NCBI RefSeq assembly: GCF_010894455.1 | Contig: NZ_JAAIXY010000005.1 | Coordinates: 248,001 to 312,000, forward strand | Direction of reading: 5' to 3' | DNA length: 64,000 nt | Source: Myxococcus eversor | GTDB lineage: Bacteria; Myxococcota; Myxococcia; Myxococcales; Myxococcaceae | In this document: piece after piece, positions 49,567-64,000 of the stretch | How the letters are laid out: each line of letters begins with the position of its first letter | How positions within the stretch are numbered: the stretch's first letter is position 1 | Position numbers and translations under genes: made by a program | Notes under the pieces: generated by a model | What the model was told of the DNA's origin: nothing | The model's input: the letters and a program-made list of their open reading frames with translations, nothing else | Databases searched by the model: none

Positions 49567-50406
49567 TTGAGTACCGCTCCTCACCTGGAGGCCGGGGGCC
49601 TCCTGCTGATTGCAGATGCTTCCCTGCCCGCGGCCTCGCTCGAGCAGGCGGTGCCGCTGCTGGCGCAGGGTGAGGTGGGCGGCAAGGGCGCGCTGGTGTT
49701 GTTCGACGGCGTGCTCAAGCCCGAGCACGCGCAGTGGCTGCGGCGAGAGCCGCCAGCCCTGCTCCTGGCCACGCGCGAGCGCGACGGTGGGCCTTCCATG
49801 TGGGAGGTCCGGCTGTTGGGCTCGCTGTGGAAGCAGGGCTCGCTCCTGCCGGACCAGGCGGAGGTGAAGCGCCATCCGCTGCGCCGCGTGGCGGACATCC
49901 ACGCGGCGGCCAAGGCGGCGTCGGTGGCGGTGGACGACGCGGAGGGCAGCCGCGTGGCGGCCGGGCTGGTGGCGGACGTGGTGCATGAAATCGCCGCCAA
50001 CGCGCTCCTGGATGCGCCGGTGGATGCGCGGGGCGAGCCTCGCTACGCGCACCGGCGCACCGAGGTGCGTGAAGTGGAGCCGGAGGACGCCTGCGAGCTG
50101 ACGTTCGCGGTGGAGGACGGCCGGATGTGGCTGGAAGTGGCGGACCGCTTCGGCGGCCTGCGGCCGGGCTCGTTCGCCCGGGCGCTGGAGGGGTGGGGCA
50201 AACGCGTGAAGGTGGATGCGTCTGGCGGAGGGGCGGGTCTTGGATTGCGTCGCATCCTCGAGCACTGCGACACGGTGGCGGTCCGGGTGACCGCTGGCCG
50301 GGAGTCGCGAGTCGTGTGCGTGGTGGACCTGGGAGACGCGCGCCGCCGCGCGACCCAGCCCAAGTCACTGATGTTCTGTCTGCATGAGGTCAGGGCCGGT
50401 GGATAG
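49567..50406 (+). CDS. GHKL ATPase-domain protein, RsbW-like
   Basis: A 279-residue cytosolic protein with a TTG start, 9 bp after the receptor gene. The first 115 residues are an alpha/beta domain of unknown type. The C-terminal half has GHKL ATPase motifs: N box VHEIAANALLDAP (Glu141, Asn145), G1-like VADRFGGL (Asp193) and G2 SGGGAGLGLRRIL (219-231). No dimerisation/phosphoacceptor His box is present, which fits anti-sigma-factor serine kinases (RsbW/SpoIIAB) better than sensor kinases. Its 3' end overlaps the start of a kinase gene whose product begins with a STAS-like domain, the usual substrate of RsbW-type kinases. Co-expression of the two is very likely. Confidence 0.75.
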   Translation: MSTAPHLEAGGLLLIADASLPAASLEQAVPLLAQGEVGGKGALVLFDGVLKPEHAQWLRREPPALLLATRERDGGPSMWEVRLLGSLWKQGSLLPDQAEVKRHPLRRVADIHAAAKAASVAVDDAEGSRVAAGLVADVVHEIAANALLDAPVDARGEPRYAHRRTEVREVEPEDACELTFAVEDGRMWLEVADRFGGLRPGSFARALEGWGKRVKVDASGGGAGLGLRRILEHCDTVAVRVTAGRESRVVCVVDLGDARRRATQPKSLMFCLHEVRAGG

Positions 50407-53400
50407 CCAGGGTTCCAACGCCATCATCAGCCGGCTCCGCGTGGGTACCATCACCCACGTCCGGATTGCCGGCGTCATCGACGAGACCTTCCCGTTGACG
50501 TCGACGAACCCGGAGCTCAGTGGGCTCCTCGTCGTCGACCTCGGCCGGGTGGAGCGCATCAGCTCCTTCGGGGTCCGCCGGTGGATTGAATTCGCCGCGA
50601 AGCTGCCTCCGGGCGCGCTGGGGCTGTACGTCGTCCATGCGCCCCCCGTCGTGGTGGATCAGCTCAACATGGTGGAGGGCTTCGCGGGAGTCGCGCGCGT
50701 GCTCTCCGTGCTGGCGCCGTACACGTGTCGCACCTGCAACGAAGACCGGATGCGGGTGGTGAACCTGGTGGACGAAGCCCAGGTCATCGCCGAGGAGCGC
50801 GCGCCCGAGCACACCTGCCCCGTCTGCTCCAACCCGCTGGAGTTCGCGGACCTGCCGGGCGAGTTCTTCGACTACGCGCGCCGTCAGCAGTTCGGCACCG
50901 TGGACCCGGTGGTGATGCGCTACCTGCGCGCGAGCATGCCGACGGAGCAGTCGGAGCTGCCGCAGCACCTGAAAATCGTCCAGGACGACGTCACGTTCAT
51001 CTCGCTGGCGAGCACGCTCAAGGGCGACCTCAACGTGCGCCGGCTCGCGTCCGGGTTGGAGGGGCGCGTCGCGTTCGACTTCAGCCACGTCAGGACGGTG
51101 GAGCCGGAGGCGCTGCCCAAGCTGGAGCAGGTGCTGGACACCGCGGCGCAGGCCGCGCAGGTGGTGCTGTGCCGCGTGCCGCCGCCGGCGCTGGCCGTGC
51201 TGGCGCGCTCGTCCAAGCTGATGCCGGGGCGGCTGGCCACGCTGTGGCTGCCGTGCGAGTGCCGCAACTGCGGCCAGGTGAGCCACCAGCGCATCCAGGC
51301 CCACGAGTACCTGGCGCAGCTTCGCGCGCACCAGACGAGCATCACCATCGAGTGCCCCATCTGCGGCGGCAGCGCCCAGGTGCCGCACATGCCGCAGCTC
51401 CAGGGGTTCCTGGCGCGCGTGCAGCTCACGGACCGGCCGCTGGACGACATCGAGGGGCTGGAGCCGCGCGCCCTCAGTCAGTACCTGTTCGGGTCCACCA
51501 ACGTGGACCCGCAGGCGAACAAGGGCTCGCCCACCGACATCTCCAACTCGCTGGGCAGCACCAAGCTCAACATCATCCGACGGCTGGGCCAGGGCGGCAT
51601 GGCCGAGGTCTTCCTCGCCAAGCAGGTGGGCGTGAAGGGCTTCGAGAAGTTCGTGGTGATGAAGAAGATTCTCCCGCAGTTCGCGCAGAACCCCGAGTTC
51701 GTGGACATGCTGTTCGCGGAGGCTCGCGCCAACGCGCGCCTCACGCATCCCAACGTCGTGCAGACCTTCGACGTGGGCGTGTCCGACGGGGTCGCGTACA
51801 TCCTGATGGAGTACGTGCGCGGGCCGGACATGAAGCGGCTGGTGAACGAGCTGCGCCGCAAGGGGCTCGCGCTGCCGCTGGAGCACGCGCTGCGCATCGT
51901 CGCGGAGGTGGCCGCGGGTCTGCACTACGCGCACGCGTACGTGGACCCGGCGGGCACGCCGCACCCCGTGGTGCACCGCGACGTCAGCCCGCACAACGTC
52001 CTCATCTCCCTGGACGGCGCCATCAAGCTGAGTGACTTCGGCATCGCCAAGGTGGCGGGCGAGGAGAACACCCAGGCGGGCGTGCTGAAGGGGAAGATTT
52101 CGTACATCTCCCCGGAGGCCGCGTCGGGCCGCACGCTGGACGCGCGCAACGATGTCTTCGCGCTCGGCGTCGTCCTCTTCGAGCTGCTCACCGGACAGCT
52201 TCCGTTCCGCAGGGACCACGACGCGGCCACGCTCAACGCCATCGTCCGCGAGCCCGCTCCCGTCCCCTCGCAGCTTCGTCCGCAGATTCCGCAGGACGTC
52301 TCCGACCTCATCCTCCGCGCCCTCGTGAAGGACCCGGCGCGCCGCACGCCGTCCGCCGCGGCGATGCGCGAGGAGATTGAAGCGGTGATGGCGCACCACC
52401 GCCTCAACTCGTCCCCGGCGGCGGTGGCCCAGTTCTTCAAGGACACGCTGGGAGACCGGCTGGTGGAGTACACGCCTTCGACAGCGTCGGGAACGGGCAG
52501 CCATCCCAAGCCCGTCCCCAGCGGCACGGGCAGTGGCAGCGTCGGCAGCGGGGACATGGTGGCCCCCGTCGATGCCAGGACGCCAAACCGGGGCACGGGC
52601 AGTGGCCCGAAGCCGACCACGGCGGGCAGTGGCAACATCCCGCGTCCGACGACGGGCACGGGCAGCGGCAACGTGGCCGCGCGGCCCGCGACGCCGCCTC
52701 CCGTGGCGACCCGCCCCGCGACGCCTCCGCCCGTGGCGCCCAGGCCCGCGACACCTCCTCCCGTGGCGACCCGCCCCGCGACGCCGCCTCCCGTGGCGAT
52801 CCGGCCTCCGCCTCCTCCGCCCACCATGACTCCGCTGCCGATGCTCCCGGCGCTGGATGCGGGGGACCGGACCGAGGTGGTGCTGTTGCAGGGGAGCGCG
52901 CAGTTGCCTCCTCCCGCGCAGACCCAGCCCGCTCCAGCGCCGCGTCCGTCGCAGCCGGGCCACACCGCGGTGCCCGTGCCTCAGCGTCCGTCCTCCACCG
53001 CGCTGCCCGCCTCGGCGCCCCGTCCCGCTCCCGCGCCCCGGCCGTCCTCGCCAGGGCACCAGAGCCCCGTGCCCGTCGCGCGACCCGTTCCTCCCGCGCC
53101 CGCGCAGGGAGAGCCCACCGCGTCCGAGTCCGGGAAGGGCACGTGGAAGTGGGCGGCCCTGGGTGGCGGTCTCTTGCTGGTGGTGGCTGTCGTGGCGGTG
53201 GTGATGCTGCGCGGTCCCGGCTCCGTGTTCCTCAATTTGGAGGAGGGCGAGCACGTGTACGTCGGTGGCGTGCGGCTGGAGCCCGGCTCGAAGTCGCTGC
53301 CGGCGCCGCCCACCGGGCCGATGCTCATCGCCACGGCGTTGAACGGGAGGCTGCGGCGGTTCGGCACCACGCAGCTTCGCGAGGACATCGACGTGCGGAC

Positions 53401-53644
53401 GCTGGCGGATGCGATGCCCCAGCCCGGGACACGAGGGCTGCTGAGCGTGACGAGCGGCGAGTCCGGGTGCCAGGTCCAGGTGGACGGCGCACCGCTGCCC
53501 AACCGCACGCCGGTGACGAAGGCCTCCATCGAGGCTGGCAGGGAGCTGGAGGTGGTGGTGAGCTGTCCTGGCGCCGCGAGCAAGCAGTGGGTGCTGGCGG
53601 TGCCCGGCCAGGAGATTGTCGTGACGGCTCGGCAACAAGACTGA
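50384..53644 (+). CDS. Ser/Thr protein kinase with tandem STAS-like/zinc-ribbon units, transmembrane helix and PEGA-type C-terminus
   Basis: A 1086-residue protein. STAS-like domain 1 (20-112; VVDLGRVERISSFGVRRW, Ser60/61 at the switch position) is followed by zinc ribbon 1 (C115, C118, C145, C148). STAS-like domain 2 (203-285; FDFSHVRTVEPEAL) is followed by zinc ribbon 2 (C291/293, C296, C324, C327). The Hanks-type kinase domain (395-670) has LGQGGMAEVF, a catalytic Lys in VVMKKI, HRDVSPHN (531-538) and DFG (551-553). A Gly/Ser/Pro linker with decapeptide repeats (768-807), a transmembrane helix (921-943) and PEGA-like domains (1018-1084) complete it. The ATG overlaps the ATPase gene by 23 bp. 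The kinase faces the cytoplasm and the PEGA end the periplasm. Confidence 0.9.
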   Translation: MRSGPVDSQGSNAIISRLRVGTITHVRIAGVIDETFPLTSTNPELSGLLVVDLGRVERISSFGVRRWIEFAAKLPPGALGLYVVHAPPVVVDQLNMVEGFAGVARVLSVLAPYTCRTCNEDRMRVVNLVDEAQVIAEERAPEHTCPVCSNPLEFADLPGEFFDYARRQQFGTVDPVVMRYLRASMPTEQSELPQHLKIVQDDVTFISLASTLKGDLNVRRLASGLEGRVAFDFSHVRTVEPEALPKLEQVLDTAAQAAQVVLCRVPPPALAVLARSSKLMPGRLATLWLPCECRNCGQVSHQRIQAHEYLAQLRAHQTSITIECPICGGSAQVPHMPQLQGFLARVQLTDRPLDDIEGLEPRALSQYLFGSTNVDPQANKGSPTDISNSLGSTKLNIIRRLGQGGMAEVFLAKQVGVKGFEKFVVMKKILPQFAQNPEFVDMLFAEARANARLTHPNVVQTFDVGVSDGVAYILMEYVRGPDMKRLVNELRRKGLALPLEHALRIVAEVAAGLHYAHAYVDPAGTPHPVVHRDVSPHNVLISLDGAIKLSDFGIAKVAGEENTQAGVLKGKISYISPEAASGRTLDARNDVFALGVVLFELLTGQLPFRRDHDAATLNAIVREPAPVPSQLRPQIPQDVSDLILRALVKDPARRTPSAAAMREEIEAVMAHHRLNSSPAAVAQFFKDTLGDRLVEYTPSTASGTGSHPKPVPSGTGSGSVGSGDMVAPVDARTPNRGTGSGPKPTTAGSGNIPRPTTGTGSGNVAARPATPPPVATRPATPPPVAPRPATPPPVATRPATPPPVAIRPPPPPPTMTPLPMLPALDAGDRTEVVLLQGSAQLPPPAQTQPAPAPRPSQPGHTAVPVPQRPSSTALPASAPRPAPAPRPSSPGHQSPVPVARPVPPAPAQGEPTASESGKGTWKWAALGGGLLLVVAVVAVVMLRGPGSVFLNLEEGEHVYVGGVRLEPGSKSLPAPPTGPMLIATALNGRLRRFGTTQLREDIDVRTLADAMPQPGTRGLLSVTSGESGCQVQVDGAPLPNRTPVTKASIEAGRELEVVVSCPGAASKQWVLAVPGQEIVVTARQQD
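52685..52804 (+). repeat. 30-bp in-frame tandem repeat (RPATPPPVA decapeptides)
   Basis: Four near-identical 30-bp units encode RPATPPPVA plus one variable residue (T, P, T, I) in the linker between the kinase domain and the membrane helix. The unit number is likely to vary between strains by slippage. Pro-rich repeats of this kind act as extended spacers. Confidence 0.8.
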
Positions 53645-53700: not shown

Positions 53701-56034
53701 ATGAAGGGCTGGACGTTCTTCCCTCACCTCGTCGTGCGGACGACAGGTTTCCCATTCGACTGGTTGGAGCGGTTGGGGTGCCCGGAGTCGGCGACGTGGG
53801 CACGTCGGCTCGAGGCGGAGCGACGTGGGCTGGATGCGCTGCGTGCCCAGGGGCCGCGCGTGCGTCGCCCTCCGCGAGAGCTGCTGGCCGCGCTCAAGGC
53901 GGGGCGTCCCGTCAACACCGAGGGGATGGAGTCTCCGGAGCGCTTCGCGGAATGGAATGTCCGCGCCGCGGCGGCCCAGGAGGCGGAGGCCGGTTTCGCC
54001 GAGGCGATGGAGCGTGAGCTGGCGGCGGTGGAGTCCCAGCTCGCGACGCTGTGCCGCGAGCCGCGCTTCCTGGAGGCGGTCGCCAGCTCCAGTCCGCCGG
54101 TGGCCAAGGACCTGCTCGCGGGGCGCGAGGGCTCCCGGTTGCGTCGGCAGCTCGCCAGCTATCTGCAGCGGCTGTGCGCGAAGAACGAGACGATGGGCTT
54201 CTTCGGTCCCATCAACTACGGCCGCGTGGACCCGGACGCGCCCACGGGCGTGACGCTGAACTGGTCCGGCCCCGAGACGCTGGTGGGGCGCAACACCTTC
54301 GCGGCCTCGTGGCTGGTGCAGGGGTTGGTGAGGGCCATCGCGTTCGACCCGGAGATCGCCTCGTGGCTGGTGCCGCGCCGCAAGGCCTTCGCGGAGATGC
54401 CCGCGCGCAAGGCGGGCCCCACGCCGGAGAGCGCGGAGGAGCTGCTGCCCCGGTTGGTGGAGCTGGCGGATGGGACGCGCACGCTGGCGGCCCTGGCGTC
54501 GTCCCTGGGCGTGGCGCCTGGCCTCGCCCGCGAGGCGCTGAGGCTGGGCTGTGACAAGTCGCTGCTCACGCACCAGCTCGAGGTACCCTCCGCGGTGCAC
54601 CACCCCGTGGACGACCTGGCGGAGCGTGTCGCAGCGCTGCCGAGCGCGGGTGCGCGGCGTCATGTCGAGGGCCTGAGCGCGCTGTTGGAGCTGATGGGGC
54701 GCTATGGCGCGGCGGACGCGAGCGGGAAGATGGCGCTCCAGGACGCCTTCGCGCGGCGGGCGAAGGAGCAGTGGGGCGTGGCGCCTTCGACGGAGCGCGG
54801 GCCCGCGTCCGAGTCCCACAACTTCTACCAGGACCGGCTCGCGCTGCGAGAGGAGTGCGGCGGGGACCTGCGGCTCGAGGTGGGCGGCGAGCGGGCGCGG
54901 GAGCTGGGGACCCGCATGGAGCCGGCGCTGGCGTGGATGGCCGAGGCGGCCTGGCGCACGCGAGACGCGGCGCGCGCCGCGGTGGCGCAGAAGGTCGGCT
55001 CACGCACGGTGCCCTTCTGGAAGGTGGCCGCCGCCAGCGCGGACCTGCCGTTGCCGCTGGACACGTCGATGGCGGAGCTGCTCGCGCAGTCCATTCCGGA
55101 CGCGGCGGCGCGCGTTGTCGAGCTGGGTGACGTGGTGCCTCCCGCGTGGGATTCGGCGCGGGCCCTGCCGCTCGTCACGTCGGTGGACCTGCTCGTCGGG
55201 GCGGCGGACGTGGAGGCCTGGGGACGAGGCGACTACACGCTGGTGATGGGGGACATCCACGACACCGCGCTGGTGTGGGGCTGGGCGCTCCAGTTCCATC
55301 CTTCGCGAGGGAAGGTGGAGAGCGCCATGGTGCGTGCGCTCGGCGCCCTGCCGCGCGCGATGCCCCTGGTGACGGTGCTGCCCTCGCGTCGCACGGGGCT
55401 GTTGCCCTCGGAGTTTCCCGGACCCGTGGTGGAGCTGGGCGGTGTCAGCTCCCGCGCCTCCGCGTGGCGGATTCCGCTGGATGACCTGTTCGTCGAAAGC
55501 GACGGCAAGAGCGCGCGGCTGGTGTCGAAGCGGCTCGGCTCCGAGGTGTGCCTCTACAACGGCGAACTGGAGAGCACGGTGCATACGGCGTTCTCGCTTC
55601 CGCGCATCCGCCCGCTGCGGGTGTCGCTGGGGGAGCACACGCCTCGAGTCACGCTCGGCGGGGTGGTGGTGCAGCGCGAGCAGTGGCGGCTGGATGCGGC
55701 GGCGCGAGAGGCGCTGCTGGCTTGCAAGGACGACCGCGCGAGGCTGCGCGTCGCGGTGGGCCTGTGGGAGGCGCGCGGCCTTCCGCCGTGTGTCTTCGCG
55801 AAGTTCAAGGGCGAGCGAAAGCCCGTGCTGGTGGACGTGCGCAGCCCGCCGTTGCTGCGCGTCTTCCTCAACCTGCTGGAGCAGAAGGAGGAGGTCCTCC
55901 TCTCGGAGATGTTGCCCGGGCCGGAGCAGCTCTGGCTCCGTGGACCGGGAGGTCGCCACACGGTGGAGCTGCGCTGCACGCTGTTGTGGGGCGGCCCCCG
56001 GGCCGCCATGCCTCCCGTCGCGGAGGAGGCGTGA
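53701..56034 (+). CDS. Short LanB-like protein (lantibiotic dehydratase N-terminal family), copy 1
   Basis: A 777-residue protein of the LanB glutamylation-domain family (Lant_dehydr_N). Family landmarks: N-terminal VVRTTGFPFDWLERLG (11-26), the core QRLCAKNETMGFFGPINYG (156-174) and the C-terminal IRPLRVSLGEHTPRVTLGG region followed by KPVLVDVRSPPLLRVFLNLL and EMLPGPEQLWL. Full-length LanBs (about 1000 residues) use glutamyl-tRNA to glutamylate Ser/Thr and then eliminate it with a C-terminal domain; that domain is absent here. Short LanBs can act with a separate eliminase or as peptide-aminoacyl-tRNA ligases. It starts 56 bp after the kinase gene and overlaps the next gene by 1 bp. Confidence 0.82.
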   Translation: MKGWTFFPHLVVRTTGFPFDWLERLGCPESATWARRLEAERRGLDALRAQGPRVRRPPRELLAALKAGRPVNTEGMESPERFAEWNVRAAAAQEAEAGFAEAMERELAAVESQLATLCREPRFLEAVASSSPPVAKDLLAGREGSRLRRQLASYLQRLCAKNETMGFFGPINYGRVDPDAPTGVTLNWSGPETLVGRNTFAASWLVQGLVRAIAFDPEIASWLVPRRKAFAEMPARKAGPTPESAEELLPRLVELADGTRTLAALASSLGVAPGLAREALRLGCDKSLLTHQLEVPSAVHHPVDDLAERVAALPSAGARRHVEGLSALLELMGRYGAADASGKMALQDAFARRAKEQWGVAPSTERGPASESHNFYQDRLALREECGGDLRLEVGGERARELGTRMEPALAWMAEAAWRTRDAARAAVAQKVGSRTVPFWKVAAASADLPLPLDTSMAELLAQSIPDAAARVVELGDVVPPAWDSARALPLVTSVDLLVGAADVEAWGRGDYTLVMGDIHDTALVWGWALQFHPSRGKVESAMVRALGALPRAMPLVTVLPSRRTGLLPSEFPGPVVELGGVSSRASAWRIPLDDLFVESDGKSARLVSKRLGSEVCLYNGELESTVHTAFSLPRIRPLRVSLGEHTPRVTLGGVVVQREQWRLDAAAREALLACKDDRARLRVAVGLWEARGLPPCVFAKFKGERKPVLVDVRSPPLLRVFLNLLEQKEEVLLSEMLPGPEQLWLRGPGGRHTVELRCTLLWGGPRAAMPPVAEEA

Positions 56035-57701
56035 TGAAGTGGCTGGTGCTGCCTCCACACCGGGACATCACGCTCGTGCCCGAGGTCCCCGAGGGGTGGC
56101 ACCTGTTGGACCTGGCGAGGGACTTCGGCCGCCGGGTCTTCTCCTCCGAGTCGGTGGAGGCGGAGGCCCTGGCTCGCGAGTCGTCGCCCCCGTCGCCCCA
56201 GACGATGCGGGAGCTGCTCCTGCTGCGAGTCGCGCAGGGGCTTCGTGACAGGGGGCCGATTCCGGAGCTTCGCGCCCTGGGCGCGGTGCTGACGGCGATT
56301 TCTGGCCCGCCCAACGGCGTCCACCTGCGTCTGGATGACGTGGAGCTGGAGTCCGGCACGACGGAGCGGAGTGGGGATGTCCAGCGCGTGGTGGGGCTGC
56401 CCGCGCCGTACTCGGATGACGTGGCGGGTGTCCTCGCGCGCTTCGAGGAGGCGGAGTGCGTCCGCGTGTGGCTGGAGCGTGACCTTCAGCTCCCCGCCGC
56501 CGTGTCACTCGCGCAGGCGTGTCCAGCGCATGTGGCTTTGGAAGTCGCCGGGCCCTTCGCCTGGACGCATCGCGAGGTGCTGGCGCGGATGCCCGCGTTC
56601 CGGCGTGCGGCGTTCCCGGAGCAGGTGCCCCCGCTGCGCTGGCGCGTGGCTCCGCTGCGGGGTGATTCCGGTTCGAGCGACCTCGTGTGGGTCGCTGATG
56701 CGCTGGGACTGGAGGTCGTCGCTCCGTATCCGGGGGGAGATGAGCACGACTGGGTGGAGTTCGATGCTCCTTCCGCCGACGGCCCGGAACCGGGGACGAG
56801 GCGACGGGAAGACTGGCTCGGTGCCTGCTCGTTGGACGAGGTGCGCGCGTACACCGGAGGCGCACGCTGGGCGGGCCACGTGTCGCTCGGGTCGCTCCTG
56901 GCGGCGGACGTGCTCGCGGAGAGCGGCTGTCACACGGTGGTGGTGGGGTTCTGCGGTATCGAGAACGGTCGGGTGGTGGACCCTGAGCGCCGCTTCATCT
57001 CGCTGGAGTCGCTCGTCCAGGGCTATCAACGGCTGAAGGCCGCGGGTGTGCGGGTCGTCGCGGAGTGGTGGGTGGGAGCGCCGGGCGTGGATGAGGCGTC
57101 CCTGGATGTCACGCTGGCCGCGCTGGAGGGCCCGCGCTTCTTCGACCACCTCGCGGGAGTGCGCCCGTTCCACGCGTCGGTGGAGCGCATCGCCCGAGTC
57201 CGCGACATGGCGCGCTGGTGGGGACAGCCTGGAGATCCTCCGGCGGACCGGGACTTGTCCCGCAGTCGCCCCATCGAAAAGCCGGGGACGATTGAGGGGA
57301 CGCGCCTGCCCGCCGTGCTCACCTCGTTGGCGAGCCGCCTGCTGGGTCGCGCGCCGCTCAGTCCGGGCCGTGTCGCCGCGGCGTTCCTATACGGGCCCGT
57401 GGCTCCTGTGCCTTCGATAGCGCCTGCGCCAGACGCCGCCGCGCTCATCCGACTGGATGTGGACTGCGCGGTGGTGCGACTGGCGGCCTCGCTCGATGGC
57501 GCCCCGAAGCCCACGTGGTACGCGGCGAACCTGCGCACCGGGGTCGTGCTCGCGATGGATGCGCGCCTGGCTCCCGTGCTGTCCCGGCTGACAGCGCCTG
57601 CTTCGGCGTCGGCCGCGCTGGGCGCGGTGCCGGAGGCGCAGCGCGCGAAGGTGGTGGAGATGCTGGTGACGAAGTCCATCCTGGAGAGGACGCACGGATG
57701 A
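56034..57701 (+). CDS. Radical-SAM-like barrel protein lacking the iron-sulphur cysteines
   Basis: A 555-residue protein encoded between the two LanB-like genes, overlapping both (TGATG and ATGA). The middle and C-terminal parts follow the strand-helix pattern of radical SAM/B12-type barrels: YPGGDEHDWVEF, SLGSLLAADVLAESGCHTVVVGF, SLESLVQGYQRLKAAGVRVVAEWWVGAPGVDEASLDVTLAAL. The CxxxCxxC motif for the 4Fe-4S cluster is absent, and its few Cys residues are scattered. If the fold is right, it is either a non-catalytic scaffold or uses different chemistry. The first 120 residues are helical and could bind a peptide leader. The fold assignment is tentative; the translational coupling is clear. Confidence 0.6.
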   Translation: MKWLVLPPHRDITLVPEVPEGWHLLDLARDFGRRVFSSESVEAEALARESSPPSPQTMRELLLLRVAQGLRDRGPIPELRALGAVLTAISGPPNGVHLRLDDVELESGTTERSGDVQRVVGLPAPYSDDVAGVLARFEEAECVRVWLERDLQLPAAVSLAQACPAHVALEVAGPFAWTHREVLARMPAFRRAAFPEQVPPLRWRVAPLRGDSGSSDLVWVADALGLEVVAPYPGGDEHDWVEFDAPSADGPEPGTRRREDWLGACSLDEVRAYTGGARWAGHVSLGSLLAADVLAESGCHTVVVGFCGIENGRVVDPERRFISLESLVQGYQRLKAAGVRVVAEWWVGAPGVDEASLDVTLAALEGPRFFDHLAGVRPFHASVERIARVRDMARWWGQPGDPPADRDLSRSRPIEKPGTIEGTRLPAVLTSLASRLLGRAPLSPGRVAAAFLYGPVAPVPSIAPAPDAAALIRLDVDCAVVRLAASLDGAPKPTWYAANLRTGVVLAMDARLAPVLSRLTAPASASAALGAVPEAQRAKVVEMLVTKSILERTHG

Positions 57702-60001
57702 GCGAGCGCTGGACCTTGGGAGAGGTGTTCGTGCTCCGGCACGCCGGCTTCCCCTTCGATTGGTTGGAGTCGCTCGGGTTCTCCGACGAAGTGCTGGGCG
57801 AGGCGAACCTGCTGCTCGATGACGAGCGAGCGTTCCTGGACGCCGTGCGCGCCGAGGGCGATGAAGCAGGGGCCAAGGGCTTCCAGGACTCCTTCGAGCA
57901 GGGGAGGGTGCCCACGCTGAAGGCCCGCCATGGCCCCACGAGCCGCGAAGCCTTGGCGCGCTATCTCGTGCGGCGCGAGGCCCTCCAGGCGCGCCATGCG
58001 AAGGAGCGCGCGGACCTTCGCTCGAAGCTGCGCGAGCGCGCGGCGGACCCCGCCATCCAGGAAGCCGTGTTCCTCTCCAGCCCCGCGATGTTCGACAACG
58101 TCTGGGCCCGCTACCTGCGCGGCGGCGAGCAGAAGGACACGTCCGACGCGCGGCGCGTGGACCGACAGGTCTACACGTACCTCCAGCGCTTCTGCGCGAA
58201 GAACGAGACGACCAGCTTCTTCGGCCCCATCTCCTACGGCGAGCGCACCGACTCGGACGACTTCGACGTGCGCACGGTGGAGAGCGGCGACACCAGCCGC
58301 CGCACGTTCTTCTCGTTCTGGGCCGTGACGGAGCTCGCGCGCGCCGTGGGGCGTGAGCGGACGCTGCGGCCCCACCTGCCACTGCGCCTCAACCCCCTCT
58401 TCACGGTGACCCCAGGGCGCGCCTCATGTCAGGCGCTGCGACTGGAGGTGCCGCTGTCCGAGGGCGCCGAGCAGCTCATGGCCGTGCTGCGCACGCATCC
58501 GACGCCCGCGTCCGCGGCGCAGGTGCTCGGCCTCGCGGTTGAAGAGGTGATGCGCACGGCCCTGCCGCTGGTGAAGGGCGCGCTGCTCCTGTGGGGCCTG
58601 CCGTTCCGACCCAACGACTTCGCCACCTTCGAGAGCGTGCGTGACTCCGTCGCGGCCCTGCCGGAGCTGGAGGCACGCACCCTCTGGTTGGAGCGGTTGG
58701 ACACGCTCGCGCGCCTGAAGGCCGAGTTCCAGACAGCGGACCTGACGCGGCGTCGCGCGTTGCTTCCGGAACTGGAGGCCCGCTTCACGGAGGCCACGGG
58801 CAAGCCCGCGCGACGCGGTGATGGCCAGGTGTACGCGGACCGGCTCATCCTCTACGAGGAGGCCAGCTCTCCCTTCCGTCTGCGCTTCGGCCGTCGCTTC
58901 ACGGAGGAGCTCGAGTCCGCGCTGACCGGTCCCCTGGAGCTGTCGGCCGCCTACGGTGAGCGCGTGCAGCAGGGCTTCCGCGAGCAGGTGCGCGACGCGC
59001 TCGGCACGGACGAGCGTCCCTTGGATCTCCTGGACTACGCCGTGCGCCTGCGTCCGGACGACGTGGCGGGGAGCCGCTTCTCTCCCGTGCCACCGGTGCT
59101 TCTGGATGAAGATGGCGCGCGGGCACGCTCGCTGCCGGTGGACTTCCTGGGCACCTCCACCCCGGGCGGCCGGTACGCGCTGCCGGACGTCTGCCTCGCT
59201 TCGAAGGGAGCCGGCGCGGGCTTCGAGGTGATGCTCGCGCGCGTGCACCACCACCTCATGCTCCGAAGCTGGCTGAGCGCCTTCTTCCCCTCGCGAGAGC
59301 GGTACTCGGCGGTGGCCTCGCGTTGGCTGGAGGCGGACCCCTCGGCGCGCGGACTGGTGGGCCTGTCCATCCGCCGACGCAACAAGGGCTTCTACGTGTT
59401 CCCCGGCCGCCGCCTCGTGTATGCGGTCTCGGACGTGCTGGACGTCGAAGACGGCGCGATGACGCCAGCCGATGTGAAGGTGCTGCCCACGCCGCAAGGG
59501 CCGGTGCTGGTGGACGGGAAGGGCGAGCGGGTGCACCTGTACCTGCCCCTGGATGACTTCTCGTCCTATCCGCCCTTCGCCGCGCTGGCACATCCCCAGG
59601 TGCTCCACGCGCCGCTGCGCACGAAGGGCAGCCACCTGCCTCGCCTGAGCATCGGCGGCGCGGTGTACCAGCGCGAGCGGTGGGAGCTGTCCTCGGAGAA
59701 GCTGGCGCGCCCCACCGGGTTCGACCTCTTCCTCGCCGCGCAGCGCGAGCGGCGCGCACGGAACTGGCCTCGCTTCGTCTTCATGCGCAGCTCGAAGGAG
59801 CGCAAGCCGTACCTCATCGACACCGCGAGCCCCTTCGCCCTGGACCTGCTCTCCCACCTCTCGCGCGAGGCGGAGCGGCTGTCCGTGGAGGAGATGTACC
59901 CGGCCCCCGAGCAGCTCTGGCTCCAGGACGCCCGGGGCCGCTACACCTGCGAGCTGCGGATGCAGTTCACCCGCTGGAGCGAGGGCACCTCGCATCTTTG
60001 A
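57698..60001 (+). CDS. Short LanB-like protein (lantibiotic dehydratase N-terminal family), copy 2
   Basis: A 767-residue paralogue of the first LanB-like protein, diverged in sequence but with the same landmarks: FVLRHAGFPFDWLESLG (11-27), QRFCAKNETTSFFGPISYG (163-181), HLPRLSIGGAVYQRERWEL, KPYLIDTASPFALDLLSHL and EMYPAPEQLWL. The elimination domain of full LanBs is also missing here. Two different short LanBs in one operon suggest successive or heterodimeric action on one peptide. The start overlaps the radical-SAM-like gene (ATGA at 57698). A small-protein gene follows after 62 bp on the same strand. Confidence 0.82.
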   Translation: MSERWTLGEVFVLRHAGFPFDWLESLGFSDEVLGEANLLLDDERAFLDAVRAEGDEAGAKGFQDSFEQGRVPTLKARHGPTSREALARYLVRREALQARHAKERADLRSKLRERAADPAIQEAVFLSSPAMFDNVWARYLRGGEQKDTSDARRVDRQVYTYLQRFCAKNETTSFFGPISYGERTDSDDFDVRTVESGDTSRRTFFSFWAVTELARAVGRERTLRPHLPLRLNPLFTVTPGRASCQALRLEVPLSEGAEQLMAVLRTHPTPASAAQVLGLAVEEVMRTALPLVKGALLLWGLPFRPNDFATFESVRDSVAALPELEARTLWLERLDTLARLKAEFQTADLTRRRALLPELEARFTEATGKPARRGDGQVYADRLILYEEASSPFRLRFGRRFTEELESALTGPLELSAAYGERVQQGFREQVRDALGTDERPLDLLDYAVRLRPDDVAGSRFSPVPPVLLDEDGARARSLPVDFLGTSTPGGRYALPDVCLASKGAGAGFEVMLARVHHHLMLRSWLSAFFPSRERYSAVASRWLEADPSARGLVGLSIRRRNKGFYVFPGRRLVYAVSDVLDVEDGAMTPADVKVLPTPQGPVLVDGKGERVHLYLPLDDFSSYPPFAALAHPQVLHAPLRTKGSHLPRLSIGGAVYQRERWELSSEKLARPTGFDLFLAAQRERRARNWPRFVFMRSSKERKPYLIDTASPFALDLLSHLSREAERLSVEEMYPAPEQLWLQDARGRYTCELRMQFTRWSEGTSHL

Positions 60002-61204: not shown

Positions 61205-62284
61205 ATGAGTTCCAGCTCGGATGTCGTCGTCCTTGGCGCAGGCGTGGTGGGGTTGTCCGTGGCGAGGCGGCTGGCGGCCACCGGGGCGCGCGTGACGGTG
61301 CTGGATGCGGTGGACCCGGGCGGCCGAGGCTCTCGCGCGGCGGCGGGTGTGGCGATTCCCTCCGTGCGTCTCTACGACGACCCGGCCATGCTCGCCTTCT
61401 CGCGAGCGGGAAGGGCGACGCTGGCGGAGGACCTGGCCTCGCTGCCAGAGGGCCCCCTGCTGCGCCGAGGGCAAGGCATCCTCCGCATCGCTGCGGACGC
61501 GAAGGGACGTGACGCGCTCGCCGAGCGCGCGGCGCGGCACCCGGACGAACTGGGCACGTGGGTGGACGCGGCCCGACTCGTGGAGCTGGAGCCGGCGCTG
61601 GAGGGAACGCCGCTGCTGGGCGCGTTCGAGACGGCGCACGGCCACATGGTGGACACGGAGGGCTACGTCAACGCGCTGCTGGGCGCGGCGATGCGCGCGG
61701 GTGTGCGGGTGCGGCTCGGTGAGTCCGCGCGCTCCGTGGAGGAGACGGCCGAGGGCGTGGCGCTGCGGACCGATCGCGAGACGTTGCGCGCGGACCAGCT
61801 CATCGTCAGCGCGGGGCCGTGGTCCTCGACCTTCCCAGGGCTGCCACCGCTGCCGCTCAAGCCGGTGCGCGGACAGATGCTGGTGGTGCACCAGCCGGGC
61901 ATGTCCCTCACGCGCGTCGTCTCCGGGCCCACGTACCTGGCGCCCTGGCGCGCGGGAGAAATCGTCGTCGGCGCCACGGAGGAGGAGGTCGGCTTCGTGG
62001 AGAACGTGACGCCCGCGGGCCTGCTGCACCTGAGTGCCACCGTGGCGAAGCTGGCGCCTCGGCTGCGGGAAGCTCGCTTCGTGCGCGCCTGGGCGGGCCT
62101 TCGCGCGGTGACTCCGGATGGTCGTCCGTACATCGGCCGCTACCCGGGCACGCGGCGCACCTTCGTGGCGACGGGCCTGGGAGGGCAGGGCATCCTCACC
62201 GGTGCCCATGCGGCCACGGTGCTCGTGGAGCTCGTCGCGGAGGGCCGCGCGGAGCTCGCCGCGCCCTTCGAGCCTGGGCGCTGA
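61205..62284 (+). CDS. FAD-dependent amine/D-amino-acid oxidase family protein (DAO)
   Basis: A 359-residue flavoprotein. The Rossmann motif VVVLGAGVVGLSVARRLAAT near the N-terminus and the Glu/Asp-ending second strand (VTVLDA) bind FAD. GHMVDTEGYVNALLGAAMRAGV, LIVSAGPWSS and WAGLRAVTPDGRPYIG are typical of the glycine oxidase (ThiO)/DadA group, and GLGGQGILTGAHAA is the C-terminal FAD loop. It would oxidise an amine or amino acid to the imine with H2O2 production or quinone reduction. No thiamine genes are nearby, so a ThiO label is not justified. It is separate from the LanB operon. Confidence 0.88.
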   Translation: MSSSSDVVVLGAGVVGLSVARRLAATGARVTVLDAVDPGGRGSRAAAGVAIPSVRLYDDPAMLAFSRAGRATLAEDLASLPEGPLLRRGQGILRIAADAKGRDALAERAARHPDELGTWVDAARLVELEPALEGTPLLGAFETAHGHMVDTEGYVNALLGAAMRAGVRVRLGESARSVEETAEGVALRTDRETLRADQLIVSAGPWSSTFPGLPPLPLKPVRGQMLVVHQPGMSLTRVVSGPTYLAPWRAGEIVVGATEEEVGFVENVTPAGLLHLSATVAKLAPRLREARFVRAWAGLRAVTPDGRPYIGRYPGTRRTFVATGLGGQGILTGAHAATVLVELVAEGRAELAAPFEPGR

Positions 62285-62336: not shown

Positions 62337-62888
62337 ATGAGTGACGTGACTGACAACACCGTGAAGCCATCTTCGGTGAAGCACCTCCGCATCCCGTTGC
62401 TGCTGGTGACGGCGGCGCTGTCCATGGGCAGTGGCATGGGCAACCCGGGCTGTGGAAGTTCCTCCGACAACAAGTGTCGCGGCGACTGCGCCATCGACGG
62501 CACCTACGTCATCCGCTTCGAGGACACGACCTCGCTCAGCGCCGACTGCGCCCAGGCGGGCCTGATGTTGCCGGAGGGTGGACAGCTCCTCATCACCCGC
62601 GAGGGTGACACCACGGTCGTCCGCGCCTCCCTGGGGGACGTCCAGCTCACCGGCGACTACTACGGCGGCTCCTACACGGGCATGTCGCTGAGCGGTCGCA
62701 CGACGGTCCAGTTCAACGAGCAGCCCGATTCGGAGCTGAGCTTCTTCCTCAATGGCTACTTCGAGGAAGCCCCCGCGCGCGGCGACACGCGGGCCGTCTT
62801 CTCCGCGACGTACTCCGCCAGCCGGGTGAATGTCCCGGCGGGCGAGCCCGCGTGCGAGGTCTACCGTCGCTTCACCGCGACGCGCTAA
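62337..62888 (+). CDS. Exported hypothetical protein, possible lipoprotein
   Basis: A 183-residue protein with an N-terminal hydrophobic segment (LRIPLLLVTAALSMGSGMGN, then PGC) that could be a lipoprotein signal with an unusual lipobox (GNPGC). The mature region has a Cys cluster (CRGDCAIDGTYVIRFED, DCAQAG) and continues with beta-rich strands (TVVRASLGDVQLTGDYYGG, MSLSGRTTVQFN) that fit a small barrel or lipocalin-like fold. The ATG at 62337 has a GAGGGGAA upstream. No close relationship to a named family is recognisable. Confidence 0.72.
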   Translation: MSDVTDNTVKPSSVKHLRIPLLLVTAALSMGSGMGNPGCGSSSDNKCRGDCAIDGTYVIRFEDTTSLSADCAQAGLMLPEGGQLLITREGDTTVVRASLGDVQLTGDYYGGSYTGMSLSGRTTVQFNEQPDSELSFFLNGYFEEAPARGDTRAVFSATYSASRVNVPAGEPACEVYRRFTATR

Positions 62889-64000
62889 TACAGGCTGACC
62901 GAGTCGAAGGGCCGGTTCAGCTTGGTCCGGGGGCGGGGCAGCAGGGCTTGCACCGCCGCCGCGTCGCCTCGGCCCAGCGCGTCCACCAGGGCCTGCGTCT
63001 CCTTGGGCCAGGTGGAGCTGGCGCGAGCGCAGCGCAGGGCCTCGGACCAGTCGGAGCGCCCGGCGGCCAGTGACAGCCCCGCCAGACTCTCCGCGGCCTT
63101 GAGCGGCTCGCCGATTTCACGGGCGTGCTGCTCCGCGCGCGCGAACCAGTCCACCGCCGAGTCCATCTTCCCGTCGTCCAGGAACATCCGCCCCAGCTCC
63201 GCGGCGATGACCTGCCGGTGGAAGGAGTCTTTCAGGGCCTCCGCGCTGGCATAGGCCTGCGTGAAGTGCTCCACGGCTTCGGCGCGTGCGCCCGAAGCGA
63301 ACTCCAGGCCCGCCAGCCGGTAGCAGTGGTGCTTGGAGAAGTTGACGCCCCACTTCGCGCTGATGCTCTCGAAGCGCCGCCACGTGGCAATCGCGCCCGA
63401 GAACTGCCGCGCCGACTCCTGGAGGTAGCTGGCGTTGGAGATGAGGTTGATTTTCAGGTGCGTGGCGCTCGCGTCGTGCAGGTCTCCCACGCAGCGCATG
63501 GCGAGCTTCTCCTCCACCAACGCCTTGTCGAGCTTGCGCTCCTGGAACCACGTCAACGCGCACACGTTGCGCAGCCAGCCCTCCTGGAGCGCGCGGTCCG
63601 GCGCGGTGCTCTTCGCCAGCGCGGCCACGCCCGCCTCCACCTCCACGCGAGCGTTGGGGAGCTGCCCGAAGCGCTTGGTCAGCGTCAGCGCGCGGAACAT
63701 GTGCAGCCGAGCCACCAGCTCCGGAGGGATGCGGCACTCCAGGCCCCGTCCGAAGGACTCCATCGCCGCGTCATGAGCGCCGGTGAAGACATGCACCACG
63801 CCCATGCTGCGGTGGAGCAGCGCCTTCAGCTCATCCACGTCGCCCAGGCTGCTCTTGTCGATTTCAATGGCGGGCGTGGAGAAGCCCGTGTCCAGCACGT
63901 CCCACGCCTGGGCCACGCGCGAGGCGAGCTGCGAGTCCGGGTCGCCGTCCAGCAGCGCCAGGCCCTGCTCGGCGGCCAGCATGGCGCCTTCGTAGTTCGT
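62885..64000 (-). CDS. TPR-like helical-repeat protein, 5' end beyond the window
   Basis: The reading frame enters from the right edge and stops at 62885, giving at least 371 residues of the C-terminal part. It is made of helical pairs with tetratricopeptide-like spacing (GVVHVFTGAHDAAMESFGRGLE, YLQESARQFSGAIATWRRFES, YRLAGLEFASGARAEAVEHFTQAY, FHRQVIAAELGRMFLDDGKMDSAVDWFARAEQH). Proteins of this kind are often the C-terminal half of a kinase or regulator in myxobacteria, but the N-terminal domain is not visible here. An internal ATG at 63982 is not a likely start, since the frame is open beyond it. It overlaps the previous gene tail to tail by 4 bp. Confidence 0.8.
   Translation of the reverse strand, partial: TNYEGAMLAAEQGLALLDGDPDSQLASRVAQAWDVLDTGFSTPAIEIDKSSLGDVDELKALLHRSMGVVHVFTGAHDAAMESFGRGLECRIPPELVARLHMFRALTLTKRFGQLPNARVEVEAGVAALAKSTAPDRALQEGWLRNVCALTWFQERKLDKALVEEKLAMRCVGDLHDASATHLKINLISNASYLQESARQFSGAIATWRRFESISAKWGVNFSKHHCYRLAGLEFASGARAEAVEHFTQAYASAEALKDSFHRQVIAAELGRMFLDDGKMDSAVDWFARAEQHAREIGEPLKAAESLAGLSLAAGRSDWSEALRCARASSTWPKETQALVDALGRGDAAAVQALLPRPRTKLNRPFDSVSLY

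Follow-up and report, generated by a model that had tools for sequence, protein, structure and literature searches.

The three overlapping genes LB1, MID and LB2 of the window (the whole 64,000-nucleotide stretch of DNA analysed) very probably form the core of an ammosamide/lymphostin-type pathway built on peptide-aminoacyl-tRNA ligases (PEARLs), whose genes are dispersed in myxobacteria. The observations comprise gene content, folds, signature residues, a scaffold family match, co-occurrence and synteny, and orthology to BhaB, BhaC1, BhaG, AmmB and Amm10 was judged by signatures, folds and gene context; from characterised homologous pathways we infer the chemistry of each step, the identity of the amino acids and the role of MID. 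Short LanBs accompanied by a cluster-free Amm10 have already been described in ammosamide and lymphostin clusters (PMC12424672), so the original prediction of an undescribed system, in a pathway that was not recognised, is not supported. The novelty lies in the dispersal of the genes, the reduced number of PEARLs and a natively encoded PLALA end of the scaffold peptide. No earlier report of myxobacterial members was found in the open-access literature, and a prior mention is possible.

Organization of the trio operon and its surroundings

LB1, MID and LB2 share the same orientation, and at both junctions the stop codon overlaps the next start codon: the ATG of MID lies inside the stop codon of LB1, and MID and LB2 are joined by ATGA (Table 1). 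Re-reading the sequence confirmed the coordinates, lengths and overlaps originally given for the trio, together with the LanB landmarks FPFDWLE, CAKNETxxFFGP and PEQLWL. The pathway is wider than the boundary first drawn around these three genes, and the downstream DAO and TPR genes belong with them. A small lipoprotein-like gene is listed after DAO and before the opposite-strand TPR gene.

Two further candidates were discarded. The kinase upstream of LB1 has orthologues of 72-78% identity in three trio-negative genera, and was therefore rejected as a specific pathway part and judged mere genomic context. An anti-phage defence reading was rejected as well, PADLOC having returned zero matches for LB1, MID, LB2 and TPR.

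Table 1. Coordinates of the trio, its parts and its neighbours in the window
Feature	Position	Strand	Basis or remark
Ser/Thr protein kinase with STAS and zinc-ribbon-like N-terminus	50384..53644	+	Pkinase E 7e-41
LB1 (short LanB-like, predicted PEARL)	53701..56034	+	PF04738 only; PEARL residues; 777 aa
MID (Amm10-like)	56034..57701	+	AlphaFold2 fold, no CxxxCxxC; 555 aa
MID RRE-like C-terminal domain (residues 470-555)	57441..57698	+	5v1v match; invariant columns
LB2 (short LanB-like, predicted PEARL)	57698..60001	+	PF04738 only, TbtB-like fold; 767 aa
S1, lineage-specific accessory, 144 aa	60064..60498	+	no family match
S2, lineage-specific accessory, 133 aa	60695..61096	+	no family match
DAO, FAD-dependent glycine-oxidase-like, predicted BhaG/Amm14 counterpart	61205..62284	+	DAO family match
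TPR, C-terminal part of a 600-aa protein	62885..64000, continues past the window	-	predicted BhaC1/AmmC1-type flavin-dependent Trp hydroxylase
TPR hyperconserved C-terminal tail KLNRPFDxVxLY	62888..62923	-	homologue comparison

LB1 and LB2 as predicted PEARLs

In the Pfam profile search LB1 and LB2 match Lant_dehydr_N (PF04738) alone (E 5e-16 and 4e-17, respectively) and the elimination domain is absent from both, in agreement with their earlier description as short LanBs without it. In TglB numbering, PEARLs are marked by Asp542, Glu801 and Arg803 and by a highly conserved His near position 566, with Tyr and Leu replacing the PEARL Asp and Arg in split LanBs (PMC11117183). The corresponding residues are Asp496, His520 and Glu756-x-Arg758 in LB1, and Asp497, His517 and Glu752-x-Arg754 in LB2. 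Across a 24-protein alignment, in which the PEARL columns were set from the published motif and spacing with TglB itself outside the set, Asp, His and E-x-R are present in 23/23 short LanBs, including LB1 and LB2, and the full-length LanB of the same genome, which served as control, shows G, N and E-x-L at these columns. LB2 and its orthologues carry Arg at TglB position 564, where most PEARLs have Glu or Asp; this may reflect a different chemistry, and the position is reported as non-essential in TglB (PMC11117183). An RRE lies inside LB2 at residues 227-302.

The LB2 model (pLDDT 87.5) has the LanB fold that was expected of it, matching TbtB along its length (Z 21.3, 671 residues), and TbtB is the only match of an LB2 profile against PDB sequences (E 6.6e-27); phmmer with the single LB1 or LB2 sequence gave no useful match in the PDB. 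The model also bears a weak likeness to glutathione synthetases, which fits the ATP-grasp origin that has been suggested for PEARLs (PMC11117183). LB1, LB2 and LBx, the last being a further LanB of the actinomycete clusters described below, form three separate groups spanning phyla or genera, each at 100/100, and LB1 with its actinomycete orthologues falls into a single clade (100/100). LB1 and LB2 are predicted PEARLs that would add an amino acid from tRNA to a peptide C-terminus; the tRNA-dependent peptide modification originally proposed is well supported by these residues as well as by a PEARL scaffold peptide and by BhaC1-like and glycine-oxidase-like partners.

The source genome encodes two other LanB-type proteins. 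A third short LanB (contig C53, L053:9293-11557), with Asp, His and E-x-R present, is adjoined by FemAB-like, GST and cupin genes. The control protein mentioned above is a class I LanB of 1089 aa (contig C69, L054:8905-12171) followed by more genes, at what is probably a lanthipeptide locus.

MID, a cluster-free relative of radical-SAM enzymes

No Pfam family was found for MID, whose one NCBIfam match, a weak one, is to PhpK-type B12 radical-SAM methyltransferases. Its AlphaFold2 model (pLDDT 86, pTM 0.86) aligns best to radical-SAM structures, with AprD4 (Z 11.4, 276 residues, 4.2 Å) and TsrM (Z 11.1, 298 residues, 4.7 Å) among the top structural matches, and residues 470-555 resemble the RRE-leader complex of TbiB1 (5v1v; Z 6.6, 78/88 residues, 3.4 Å). 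The model suggests an N-terminal B12-binding-like domain, a radical-SAM-type barrel and a C-terminal RRE-like domain, in which NLRTG is invariant (alignment A3). CxxxCxxC, searched for in a relaxed form as well, is absent from MID and 18 homologues (19 proteins in total), which places MID outside the radical SAM family as defined by this or an equivalent 4Fe-4S motif. Fold and motif search together bear out the idea of a radical-SAM-like barrel protein without CxxxCxxC, here with an AprD4/TsrM-like fold; its description as cysteine-less was wrong, since six cysteines are present.

Amm10 has been described in the same terms: its best partial matches are TsrM and AprD4, its C-terminus is RRE-like and the cysteine motif is lacking. 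It is conserved in ammosamide and lymphostin clusters with no role among the assigned steps (PMC12424672). MID, likened to Amm10 by description, agrees with it on every point as judged from the model. Most likely, MID would hold the scaffold through its RRE-like domain and act as a non-catalytic organiser, its barrel being unable to hold a cluster. It is tempting to speculate, as a tentative idea, that MID and Amm10, as radical-SAM/B12 enzymes whose cluster has been lost, have turned into obligatory PEARL partners, holding a peptide-bound indole quinone or steering the second transfer, and that a Trp-derived myxobacterial aminoquinone then feeds an NRPS product or a redox-active molecule processed by the cytochromes of the scaffold locus.

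MID-like genes also occur on their own. Two of them, with 47-51% identity to MID, are free of neighbouring LanB genes for about 8 kb in both directions (L051:8817-10532 in G003 and L052:9071-10729 in G043), possibly representing a relic or a new use of an Amm10-like protein. Nonomuraea gerenzanensis (L149:14995-21064) has the arrangement LB1-MID-LBy without LB2, and its MID is devoid of the RRE-like C-terminus.

Downstream genes and predicted partners

DAO matches the DAO family with E 1.6e-62, and its best NCBIfam match, the ThiO glycine oxidase (E 1.6e-56), is under the curated cut-off. The gene was present in 3/3 trio-positive and 0/7 trio-negative genomes tested, and a myxobacterial orthologue is 47% identical to the oxidase closing the Kitasatospora cluster. 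DAO is the predicted counterpart of Amm14 and of BhaG, a glycine oxidase that cleaves a Gly adduct.

BhaC1 is a TPR-domain FMN enzyme that trihydroxylates a C-terminal Trp, and AlphaFold models place its Lys391, Asn472 and Lys654 at the substrate (equivalents in AmmC1: Lys350, Asn432 and Lys602). Among TPR homologues, the aligned Lys, Asn and tail Lys stand at 338/418/589 in one (L058; spacings 80/171) and at 339/421/588 in the Actinokineospora protein (L050; spacings 82/167), compared with spacings of 82/170 in AmmC1 and 81/182 in BhaC1. This spacing, the TPR domain and the co-occurrence are suggestive of a BhaC1/AmmC1-type Trp hydroxylase. The C-terminal tail is conserved far above the rest of the protein in both Myxococcota and Actinomycetota, with KLNRPFD identical across all myxobacterial and actinomycete TPR homologues read.

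Only in Myxococcus and Pyxidicoccus are S1 and S2 found immediately after LB2, and neither has a tblastn match in the Archangium, Citreicoccus, MAG or actinomycete loci; both were rejected as conserved pathway parts, being missing from these loci although the trio is present. Short hydrophobic helical segments are abundant in S2. The suggestion that these two small proteins are the substrates is not supported, as they are not conserved with the trio and the likely substrate is encoded at another locus.

The probable scaffold peptide and its separate locus

The likely scaffold of the source genome is a 60-aa acidic peptide (contig C35, L138:9841-10023; MASEASES...EKLDEIEEIDFLLEEIESKIAPLALA) with the C-terminus ...ESKIAPLALA, i.e., ending in PLALA. 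It matches NF033737, "ammosamide/lymphostin RiPP family protein" (Amm_Lyn_leader), at 55 bits and E 6.4e-15 over a cut-off of 30, and so does an actinomycete scaffold peptide. BhaBCTrp requires BhaA-Ala, whose end is PLALA (PMC11962472). The peptides of the actinomycete clusters end ...DEVENKIAPLALAWIGPRR, ...DEVENKIAPLALASNEAIQWRR or ...DEIENKIAPLALA, and a peptide beside TPR in a myxobacterial MAG ends ...EEIENKIAPLALA. Among 396 Actinomycetota genomes, a survey with NF033737 gave one match over the cut-off (Actinokineospora) and one weak match, so that the scaffold family appears rare there, and the survey supplied few clusters for comparison.

No scaffold was found near the trio in the Myxococcus loci read. 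Whole genomes of a 92-genome sample were searched with a DNA pattern for ENKIAPLA, one mismatch being allowed: it matched once in each of the 30/30 trio-positive genomes and twice outside them, in both cases by evident chance (one match within a long permease-like frame, the other running into a stop), and a reversed control pattern gave zero matches in the same sample. An orthologue of the Rieske oxygenase encoded beside the scaffold (identity at least 70%) was found in 29/30 trio-positive genomes, the exception being MAG G050, and in none of the trio-negative genomes of the sample. As the genomes are related, these scaffold and Rieske counts are not independent. Because the scaffold, TldD/TldE and Rieske genes of Myxococcus are on a different contig from the trio, their pathway membership is argued from co-occurrence.

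The neighbours of the scaffold gene encode the Rieske oxygenase, a dihaem cytochrome c, a multihaem lipoprotein, TldD and TldE, with an outer-membrane-like protein and an NRPS on the divergent side; in genome G060 the NRPS has about 5150 aa and five A-domain motifs. PmbA_TldD_3rd is found in both TldD and TldE, as expected of the TldD/TldE heterodimeric protease of such pathways, and HExxxH is kept in TldD and missing from TldE. The Rieske, dihaem cytochrome c and multihaem lipoprotein genes (L138:5792-9829, contig C35 of the source genome) directly adjoin the scaffold, an unusual setting for a PEARL substrate; we know of no characterised PEARL pathway with a Rieske enzyme or multihaem cytochromes beside its scaffold.

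Distribution and synteny

A conservation search of 96 Myxococcaceae genomes found strong matches to MID, TPR, LB1 and LB2 in the same 34/96, in agreement with the expected co-occurrence of the trio across myxobacteria. Within the window's own genus the trio is present in 25/27 genomes, the other two having none of the genes. The remaining weak or orphan MID matches comprise short partials and MID-like genes unaccompanied by PEARLs, namely an additional copy in G003 and one in G043. TPR is never missing from trio-positive genomes: it adjoins the trio in Myxococcus and Pyxidicoccus, is separated from it by some to tens of kilobases in genomes of the Archangium type and is on a separate contig in MAG G050.

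Outside the myxobacteria, compact clusters were found in Actinokineospora (L050), genome G322 (L084) and on a Kitasatospora plasmid (L148/L150). Conserved synteny, proposed as a check of the system, was found in these three actinomycetes as the recurring order scaffold-TPR-LBx-LB1-MID-LB2-...-TldD-TldE-DAO, with extra LanBs in some. The trio is also seen in a Rubrobacter MAG (L048) and in a record labelled Comamonas sp. KCTC 72670 (L044), which is about 80% identical to the LB2 of the window and looks like mislabelled or contaminated myxobacterial sequence.

Proposed pathway and alternative readings

By analogy with the characterised pathways, LB1 or LB2 would extend the C-terminus of the scaffold by one amino acid, drawing on ATP and an aminoacyl-tRNA that is most likely Trp-tRNA. 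The BhaC1-like TPR protein would then hydroxylate the added Trp to a quinone, to whose ring the other PEARL may add a second amino acid, most likely Gly as in amm and bha. The BhaG-like DAO would cleave this adduct, leaving an amine, and the TldD/TldE pair of the scaffold locus would finally release the product.

The closest solved structures to LB2 are TbtB, GodF and MibB, and the two short LanBs might instead be split glutamylation enzymes of the thiopeptide or goadsporin type, dehydrating Ser/Thr together with a separate elimination partner. We regard this as very improbable, for the Asp and E-x-R specific to PEARLs are present in LB1 and LB2, where split LanBs have Tyr and Leu, the neighbours scanned include no elimination-domain family, and the co-occurring peptide belongs by its match to the PEARL scaffold family and ends in PLALA. 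There is hardly any chance that S1 or S2 is the substrate and the distant PLALA peptide unrelated: against their position directly behind LB2 in Myxococcus and Pyxidicoccus stand their lack of detection in Archangium, Citreicoccus, the MAG and the actinomycetes, all of which have the trio, and the scaffold peptide, which tracks the trio in 30/30 sampled genomes and adjoins TPR in four.

Departures within a PEARL pathway deserve more weight. Known PEARLs use several aminoacyl-tRNAs (PMC12424672), LB2 deviates at TglB position 564, and extra chemistry is suggested by the Rieske oxygenase, cytochromes and NRPS encoded next to the scaffold; other amino acids might thus be added, yielding an unrelated modified amino acid and not a tryptophan quinone. 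This is unlikely, however, given that a BhaC1-like TPR protein with the Trp-tunnel Lys-Asn-Lys, a glycine-oxidase-like DAO and a scaffold of the ammosamide/lymphostin type all point to Trp. It is likewise conceivable, if rather doubtful, that MID is itself a catalyst, with TsrM-like domains that accommodate a cofactor or the indole quinone and join in amino-group transfer without an iron-sulphur cluster. The model retains both its barrel and its N-terminal domain with high confidence, its match TsrM has been solved with Trp, SAM and cobalamin, and MID stands between PEARLs in every cluster read; yet the cluster motif is absent, and the ammosamide steps have been published for other enzymes with none given to Amm10 (PMC12424672). 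The preferred reading remains a tryptophan-quinone pathway in which MID would serve as organiser.

Significance

These results assign an ammosamide-type pathway, reduced to two PEARLs, to most of the Myxococcus-group genomes sampled, among them a strain of M. xanthus, a species in which genetics is routine. With MID kept in every version read and a tractable host at hand, the role of Amm10 becomes testable in myxobacteria, M. xanthus included. Moreover, a PEARL scaffold can sit far from its enzymes, a link that cluster-based genome mining would miss.

Comparison with known systems

The ammosamide (amm) pathway of Streptomyces sp. CNR-698, with Amm10, AmmC1, Amm14, Amm12/13 and AmmB1-B4 (PMC12424672, PMC11117183), shares with the myxobacterial genes the NCBIfam family of the scaffold, several short LanBs of PEARL type, a TldD/TldE pair and an RRE-ended radical-SAM-like protein without the cysteine motif; its TPR flavoenzyme and FAD glycine oxidase have predicted counterparts in TPR and DAO. 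The myxobacterial set departs from amm in being spread across two or three loci, in having two PEARLs in the trio operon and not four, and in the Rieske oxygenase, cytochromes and NRPS next to the scaffold. The myxobacterial loci read showed neither a halogenase nor an Amm19-type dipeptidase.

The bha pathway of Bacillus halodurans (BhaA, BhaB1-B7, BhaC1, BhaG) similarly combines a PLALA end with PEARLs, and its TPR Trp trihydroxylase and glycine oxidase are those to which TPR and DAO are the predicted counterparts, but BhaA receives its last Ala from a PEARL, whereas the myxobacterial scaffold encodes it. Split LanBs and thiopeptide enzymes such as TbtB and GodF share the glutamylation-domain fold (Z 18.7-21.3); unlike LB1 and LB2, they are devoid of the PEARL Asp and Arg and need an elimination partner. 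Lymphostin biosynthesis in Salinispora differs in that the myxobacterial genes are dispersed, and is alike in its scaffold family and in the Amm10-like gene conserved in its clusters (PMC12424672). There, the pyrroloquinoline unit is taken up by an assembly line (PMC9303977), to which the NRPS beside the myxobacterial scaffold, linked here by adjacency only, is comparable.
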